Shown here one piece after another: positions 31,587 through 32,996 of a stretch of DNA of 32,996 nucleotides. This DNA is from Coriobacteriia bacterium (GTDB taxonomy: Bacteria > Actinomycetota > Coriobacteriia > Anaerosomatales > Kmv31). The stretch spans positions 1 through 32,996 of the forward strand of contig JACUUM010000029.1 of NCBI GenBank assembly GCA_014859305.1, read 5' to 3'. The notes under the pieces are model-generated. The model did no database searches, was not told where the DNA came from, and saw nothing but the letters and a program-made list of their open reading frames with translations. Numbering within the stretch: the first letter of the stretch is position 1; each line of letters opens with the position of its first letter. A program made the translations under genes and the position numbers.

Positions 31587-32411
31587 CTATCCGACGGGCT
31601 TGCGCGCGCTGACGTGCACGCTCGCGAACAGGCCCGCGGCGTTTCGCGCCTGCTCCGGCGACAGCCGCCCGGCCAGTCCCAGGTCGTCCACGAGCATCGC
31701 CAACGTCGAGTCGTCCTCGTCCGCGAACGGGCGCTCCTCGGTGACCCGCACGTCCTCGAACCCCGCGGCCGCGATGTCGGCCAGGTAGCCTTCCTTGGGC
31801 GAGGCGCCCGCGAGGCACCCCGCATAGGCATCGACCGAGTCCCTGAGCGCCTGGGGCGGCTCTCCGAGGGTCACGATGTCGCTCACCTCCAGTCGCCCCC
31901 CCGGCTTGAGCGCGCGGAACGCCTCGCGGAACGCCTGCGGCTTGTCCGGGACGAGGTTGACCACGCAGTTCGAGATCACGACGTCCGCCACGGAGTCCGC
32001 GACCGGCAGAGCCTCGAGCTCGCCGAGGCGGAACTCGACGTTGCCGTAGCCGCCTTCGCGCGCGTTGCGCCGGGCGAGGTCGATCATCTCGGCGGTCATG
32101 TCCACGCCGATCACGCTGCCGGCAGGGCCGACTCGCCGAGCCGCGATGAAGCAGTCGATGCCGCCGCCCGAGCCCAGGTCGACCACCGTCTCGCCTTCCC
32201 GCAGGGCCGCGACCGCCGTCGGGTCGCCGCAGCCAAGACCCAGGCCGGCGCCTATCGGGACCTCCGCGAGCTCGGCGGGGGAGTAGCCCGCCTGGCAGCC
32301 GGCGCCCCCTGAATCGCAGCAGGCCGGCGACGCGCACTCCTGACGCTCGGGGGCGTTCGCCCGAGCCCGCGCGGCGTAGCGCTCACGCACCGCCCTCTTG
32401 ACGTCGTCCAT
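31587..32411 (-). CDS. arsM: Arsenite S-adenosylmethyltransferase
   Basis: Methylates arsenite to mono-, di- and trimethyl forms, using SAM. It has 274 residues. The family pattern is clear: [82 protein letters not shown] and AYAGCLAGA. The three conserved cysteines that bind As(III) are GLGC, SNC and AGC. An N-terminal cysteine cluster (CASPACC, GAGC) is usual in anaerobe enzymes. It begins 6 nt after the AbrB-type gene, so the two form an operon. Confidence 0.93.
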
Positions 32412-32417
32412 CCCCGG

Positions 32418-32678
32418 TCACCTTCCCTCCAGCAACGGGCCGAGCATGTCCCTGACGGCCTCGGCCAACCTGTCGGCGCGCACCAGAGCGATACAGCAGG
32501 TGCCGGCGCCCTCGCCGTACGTCACCACCGCGAGCTTGTCGCCCGCCTCGAGCCCGAGCCTGGTCCGGACGTGCTTCGGCAGCACGAGCTGCCCGCGCTC
32601 GTCCACGCTCACCACCGCCTCCATCCGGCAGCAGGCGGGCTCCGGCCCACAGCCCCCGCCCGCGCTCTCCTTCGCCAT
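32418..32678 (-). CDS. AbrB/SpoVT-type regulator, HgcC-like (HgcAB-associated family)
   Basis: An 86-residue swapped-hairpin DNA-binding protein: EAVVSVDERGQLVLPKHVRT and LGLEAGDKLAVVTYG are the AbrB/MazE/SpoVT fold. Cysteines in GGCGPEPACC at the N-terminus and TCCIALV near the end give a CC...CC set that could bind As(III) or another thiophilic metal. The same pattern occurs in the protein called HgcAB-associated HgcC. No hgcA or hgcB is in the window. It is first in an operon with arsM and has a strong promoter, so I infer it regulates the operon in response to arsenic. Confidence 0.8.
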   Translation of the reverse strand: MAKESAGGGCGPEPACCRMEAVVSVDERGQLVLPKHVRTRLGLEAGDKLAVVTYGEGAGTCCIALVRADRLAEAVRDMLGPLLEGR

Positions 32679-32713
32679 GCCGGCCTCCGCTCGTTCGACG
32701 CGCCCGGATCATC

Positions 32714-32747
32714 ATCAGAATAGTCAGAGAAATCAGAAGCGTCAACA
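32714..32747. repeat. Four 7-mers at 9-bp period overlapping the arsM operon promoter
   Basis: ATCAGAA (32714-32720), GTCAGAG (32723-32729), ATCAGAA (32732-32738) and GTCAACA (32741-32747) repeat every 9 bp. They cover the -10, spacer and -35 of the operon promoter and stand out as AT-rich. This looks like an iterated operator. Confidence 0.55.
32717..32745 (-). promoter_or_regulatory. Sigma-A promoter of the HgcC-like/arsM operon
   Basis: On the minus strand TTGACG (32745-32740), a 17-nt spacer, and TATTCT (32722-32717). Spacing is ideal and both boxes are near consensus. It lies 39 nt upstream of ATG 32678. Confidence 0.7.
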
Positions 32748-32914: not shown

Positions 32915-32996
32915 ATGGCGATCAGACGGCAGATCCTGCGGTTCGAGTACACCGAGACGCTGGACGAGAAGACGCGCGAGCTCGTGGGCCTCGCGG
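32915..32996 (+). CDS. Carboxymuconolactone-decarboxylase-like (AhpD-type) protein, partial
   Basis: The first 27 residues of a gene running off the right edge: AIRRQILRFEYTETLDEKTR then ELVGLA. LDEKTRELVGLA is the usual helix at the start of carboxymuconolactone decarboxylase/AhpD domains. ATG 32915 follows GGGAGGCTG. It diverges from the arsenic operon, and AhpD-like genes often sit beside arsM or HgcC-like genes in anaerobes. The rest is not visible. Confidence 0.6.
   Translation, partial: MAIRRQILRFEYTETLDEKTRELVGLA

Follow-up and report, generated by a model that had tools for sequence, protein, structure and literature searches.

A TCWGA array at 9-bp spacing over the hgcC-arsM promoter, the probable operator of the AbrB-superfamily regulator HgcC

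AbrB is known for loose recognition; MraZ, an autoregulator of the same superfamily, has several short TGGG-type direct repeats upstream of mraZ, and MazE, a swapped-hairpin protein, uses an iterated operator built as an alternating palindrome for autorepression. To our knowledge, both the regulation of hgcAB and the native purpose of HgcAB are open questions in the mercury field. Two studies have pointed to regulator genes upstream of hgcAB or hgcA, the older of which, from 2020, we take to be that of McDaniel et al. That study (PMC7438021) gives, in its accessible portion, 112 genomes in which hgcAB is preceded by a putative regulator left unnamed, and the accessible sections of Zhang et al. 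2023 (PMC10349881) describe an AbrB/PrlF-like gene that precedes hgcA, for the most part in archaea, and cite ArsR-like regulation of hgcAB in P. mercurii ND132. The AbrB/PrlF-like gene probably represents the same family as the HgcC proteins treated here or a sister family, and the unnamed regulator is possibly HgcC-like too; as far as the available text of the two papers goes, they cover gene neighbourhood and transcript presence, and hold neither an operator or target sequence nor a linkage to arsM. For Bacillus AbrB, the pseudo-consensus TGGNA-XXXXX-TGGNA is quoted in the available part of PMC11497800, and bipartite TGGNA sites appear in that of PMC11135676.

The window (the whole stretch of DNA analysed, 32,996 nucleotides from a Coriobacteriia bacterium) carries at 32714-32747 four copies of RTCARMR at 9-bp steps with 0 mismatches by pattern match, an arrangement absent from 100 of 100 dinucleotide shuffles of the 33-kb sequence with one mismatch allowed. 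Its tighter form, TCWGA-N4-TCWGA-N4-TCWGA (W = A/T; Table 1), occurs once in the window against 0 in 100 shuffles, and this three-box array is the sole perfect match in the 2,128,137-base genome. The minus strand of the array region reads GTTGACGCTTCTGATTTCTCTGACTATTCTGATGATGATCC. A promoter scan found TTGACG-17-TATTCT on the minus strand (32745 to 32717) once against 0.0 expected, as the single promoter-like site within the last 600 bases of the window, and the three perfect boxes span the -10 and the spacer of this hgcC promoter. The preliminary description had claimed four 9-bp copies over the -10, spacer and -35 of a near-consensus promoter and had taken them for an iterated, operator-like array: all four copies are present, the fourth being weak, the promoter is real as a pattern, and the array does overlap the -10 and the spacer.

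Table 1. Positions of the array, promoter elements and genes in the window
Feature	Position	Strand	Basis
Putative core operator (TCWGA x3, 9-bp steps)	32715..32737	-	TCAGA on +, TCTGA on -; exact match, also in relatives
Perfect boxes TCAGA	32715-32719, 32724-32728, 32733-32737	+	sequence
Weak fourth box GTTGA (TCAAC on +)	32742..32746	-	in register, 2 mismatches to TCWGA, overlaps -35
-35 hexamer TTGACG	32740..32745	-	promoter scan, 17-bp spacer, 9/12 matches
-10 hexamer TATTCT	32717..32722	-	promoter scan; box 32715-32719 overlaps
Ribosome-binding site GGAGG	32684..32688	-	sequence; 5 nt before ATG at 32678
hgcC, 86-aa AbrB/SpoVT-like regulator, Cys16/17 and Cys61/62	32418..32678	-	NF040962, PF04014, conserved Cys, fold
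arsM, arsenite methyltransferase	31587..32411	-	NF008823, 319.9 bits, cut-off 263
AhpD/CMD-like gene start	32915..32996	+	PF02627; continues on contig C74 (L002) by 55-bp overlap

The regulator behind this promoter is HgcC: it scores 102.2 bits against NCBIfam NF040962 ("HgcAB-associated protein HgcC"; curated cut-off 70), with residues 15-83 matching profile positions 1-69 of 70, and its AbrB-type domain is recognised by TIGR01439 (40.3, cut-off 28.3) and PF04014 (30, cut-off 24.7); the MraZ profile yields 16 bits, below its cut-off of 162. By sequence, its nearest solved relatives are SpoVT and AbrB-family proteins. A single-chain model (pLDDT 77.5; N-terminal 14 residues below 50) has SpoVT/AbrB as best PDB matches, with probabilities up to 1.00 but E-values above 0.01, and Foldseek gave no match at E <= 0.001 for it; the predicted fold agrees with the SpoVT/AbrB type, on weak E-values. 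The arsM gene starts 6 bp after hgcC and the two are probably co-transcribed. Profile search thus confirms the AbrB-type regulator with arsM second that had been proposed from the sequence; that proposal included neither the identity of the regulator as HgcC nor the hgcA operons that the array also fronts. Pfam and NCBIfam scans gave no ArsR domain match, no toxin gene of the MazE type adjoins HgcC, the neighbour being arsM or hgcA, and no HgcC was found among the plasmids and viral contigs searched. Contrary to the family name, the window HgcC adjoins arsM and not hgcAB: hgcA (cap helix NVWCAAGK) and hgcB of this genome lie on contig C37 (L165, L167), with no adjoining HgcC and no perfect array; the organism is therefore predicted to methylate mercury, with its HgcC serving arsM.

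HgcC homologs were drawn from 9 of 69 genomes of the same order (over the cut-off), 15 of 400 of a Chloroflexi set, 35 of 297 of the phylum of genome G101, and one Abyssobacteria genome, giving after removal of duplicates 58 distinct loci from at least three phyla. The gene after hgcC is arsM in 46, hgcA (recognised by the cap-helix motif NxWCA(A/S)GK) in 7, and neither, within the stretch examined, in 5; since 46 of the 58 members flank arsM, the name "HgcAB-associated" is narrower than the family, whose membership in NF040962 is defined by the curated cut-off and not by an hgcAB neighbourhood. Since boxes often differ from TCWGA at one outer base, a strict pattern search overlooks the majority of hgcC operators, and register was therefore tested with CTGA/TCAG 4-mers, measuring distances between TCWGA pentamer centres. 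These sites are threefold enriched upstream of the 58 HgcC genes (183 vs 56 in shuffles), and 83 pairs lie at exactly 9 bp (shuffle mean 0.4, maximum 3), followed by 57 at 18, 21 at 27 and 10 at 36, with a single pair at 8 bp and another at 10 bp. A motif-free lag analysis of the upstream regions likewise peaks at 9, 18 and 27.

Counted within 200 bp upstream of corrected hgcC starts, at least three in-register boxes precede 43 of the 58 HgcC genes (36/46 for hgcC-arsM and 6/7 for hgcC-hgcA), as against 0/725 control tiles from the same loci, 0/31 non-HgcC AbrB genes and 0/6 arsM genes without HgcC. At least two precede 50/58 vs 32/725 tiles, and the 8 regions that miss an in-register pair include some at contig ends or with long leaders. 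The recurrence in relatives on which the preliminary description had staked its reading is thus found, and this conservation is stronger evidence than the chance statistics. Apart from the array, the upstream regions have diverged (median best-shift identity 0.40). The array patch is indeed AT-richer than the window, as a chance periodicity in a compositionally odd promoter patch would have it, but such an origin has practically no probability given that none of the 100 shuffles reproduces the array and that it is conserved across phyla. The 149 units that keep the register give a TNTNCTGATTA-like consensus. Boxes can face either way and all four orientation combinations are present, so that the box is best taken as a pseudo-palindrome TC(A/T)GA with one outer base variable.

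Individual loci show further features. The HgcC-arsM promoter of L010 (G007) has a single TCWGA-type box, but it also contains TGCAT/CGCAT words that recur every 9 bp and may reflect an altered recognition code. In three loci (L085, L086, L093) hgcC is preceded by a long leader, part of which is conserved (approximately CCCATG.TGGGGGTAGCAAAGTT) and may be an RNA element or a small gene. A second, divergent HgcC paralogue lacking the CC pair (L066, on contig C82 of G100) adjoins neither arsM nor hgcA in the stretch examined, and its promoter holds a variant 9-bp repeat of ACGGA boxes (TCAGAAAAT ACGGAAAAT ACGGAAATG); this single case is suggestive of co-variation of protein and repeat. In three hgcC-hgcA operons (L098, L112, L113), HgcA has an N-terminal Cys-rich extension, e.g., VRIGDIRKQTSCCGPK...SCC, which by eye resembles the ArsM N-terminus.

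The arrays of relatives cover the spacer, the -10 or the start-site region, and box offsets to the -10 differ by lineage (-13/-4/5, 7/16/25, 8/17/26, 10/19/28), the window offset (-13, -4 and +5 from the first -10 base) being common to the Chloroflexi-set loci L074, L075, L077 and L078. A sigma element would hold one offset, which a polymerase-blocking operator need not do, and the varying offset therefore indicates that the array is not a sigma element. That promoter sequence alone (an extended -10 or sigma element) gave rise to the repeat could be argued from the box that overlaps TATTCT, and an origin as a coding repeat (Asp-x-Ser codons in an overlapping frame) from the open minus-strand frame, which reads DASDFSDYSDDD, and from 9-bp Ser-Asp coding repeats that exist elsewhere (e.g., L120). 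Boxes extend downstream of the -10, however, and the variable offsets, together with the non-coding leaders in which relatives' arrays lie, led us to reject both as highly improbable.

The array tracks hgcC and not the pathway gene: it is found before hgcC-arsM and before hgcC-hgcA, it sits between hgcB and hgcC in G039, and it is missing from G014, in which hgcAB-arsM is divergent from an ArsR-like gene and HgcC is absent. Binding by HgcC would be the simplest reading of this pattern, and judging from sequence comparison the array is probably (at about 0.78) an operator bound by HgcC for autoregulation. We infer that HgcC itself, as dimers with an AbrB/SpoVT-type DNA-binding fold, would bind successive TCWGA boxes 9 bp apart and sit side by side over the spacer and the -10, where it would block RNA polymerase, repressing rather than activating hgcC-arsM and thereby its own gene; a thiophilic ligand, most likely trivalent arsenic, would then bind C17 and the C61-C62 pair and release the operator. 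The association of array and hgcC is positional, and another conserved factor could bind hgcC promoters, in which case the array would be the operator of a different, unlinked regulator and HgcC a client or active at another level. We consider this unlikely, because array and hgcC stay together in three or more phyla and with two different downstream pathways, because arsM or hgcAB genes without HgcC have no such array in front of them, and because HgcC has a DNA-binding fold of its own.

In a variant that shares the first step, binding of the array by HgcC, the protein would act as activator or co-activator, or would sense metals or redox state (through a disulfide), instead of being a repressor released by arsenite. 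It is a possibility that we take seriously while leaning against it: the cysteines could serve redox or Zn/Cu/Hg sensing, and array position varies, from the spacer in some loci to the surroundings of the start site in others, but overlap with the -10 or start site is typical of repressors, and the neighbours arsM or hgcAB point to thiophilic elements. For P. mercurii ND132, the accessible text of PMC10349881 cites hgcAB as being under ArsR-like control and responding to arsenic, which also counts against the variant.

Among 52 HgcC proteins, C17 is conserved in 48, C61 in 48 and C62 in 50, further N-terminal cysteines are present, and the CC pair occurs in 0/31 other AbrB proteins of these genomes. 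These HgcC-specific residues (C17, C61 and C62) probably sense a thiophilic ligand. ArsR-type sites offer an analogue for As(III) binding by thiolates, and by that analogy the conserved cysteines together with arsM suggest As(III), a best guess to which we would give about even odds. Part of the CC pair is missing in four HgcC proteins, three of which (L073, L081, L087) still have the array, so the array as such does not depend on the pair. Where relatives have arsM but no HgcC, an ArsR-like gene adjoins in at least two, which fits the earlier suggestion that the regulator acts in place of ArsR; HgcC seems to be an alternative to ArsR.

Perfect arrays occur in 5 of 59 HgcC genomes. Three of the sites are at hgcC (G059, G549, G552), and G521 has two perfect arrays in or near coding repeats. 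In an hgcC-hgcA genome, a perfect three-box array is intergenic, before a frame named by eye as DUF3842-like (L119, on contig C63 of G758), a possible second HgcC target. In a 2-mismatch scan of eight same-order genomes, matches away from hgcC were about at control level, and no regulon is therefore claimed beyond the local operon. The preliminary description had also suggested a possible effect on the divergent AhpD-like gene, which finds no support: the closest perfect box lies 178 bp from its ATG (32915), the promoter scan found no promoter facing it, and such a divergent gene is not conserved beside the HgcC of relatives. Within this gene a CxxU motif (GRCHH-U-VRQHF) contains a TGA in frame. 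As the genome also encodes a tRNA-Sec (73.4 bits; ARAGORN reads its anticodon as tca), the product is probably a selenoprotein.

More broadly, HgcC may represent a new class of metalloid-responsive repressor, a cysteine-bearing AbrB fold that acts on an iterated operator of TCWGA boxes every 9 bp and would put arsM and hgcAB under one cis-element in several phyla, with arsenic and not mercury as the native signal of hgcAB there; we offer this tentatively, at somewhat less than even odds. An operator common to arsM and hgcAB operons makes hgcAB regulation testable by gel shift and provides specific grounds for trying arsenite as an inducer of methylmercury genes, and, being defined by sequence, it predicts HgcC-controlled operons from DNA alone. 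Searches of open-access literature for AbrB with mercury methylation or arsM turned up no operator, and an earlier description elsewhere is possible; the array adds a new operator to an established regulator superfamily, to which it gives a clear, strictly spaced DNA code.

HgcC shares its superfamily (AbrB/SpoVT) with the Bacillus transition state regulator AbrB, whose pentamer half-sites lie about 10 bp apart, but its half-site is TCWGA and not TGGNA, the spacing is strictly 9 bp and boxes usually number at least three; in place of a global regulon it has a predicted local, autoregulated operon, and it carries extra conserved cysteines. HgcC differs from MraZ in its one AbrB domain, in its half-site and spacing, and in having boxes that face either way, and unlike MazE it has no toxin partner gene, its partners being arsM or hgcAB. 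Finally, ArsR-like control of ars and hgcAB likewise places a local regulator at arsenic or mercury methylation genes, whereas HgcC belongs to an unrelated family and has a different operator.
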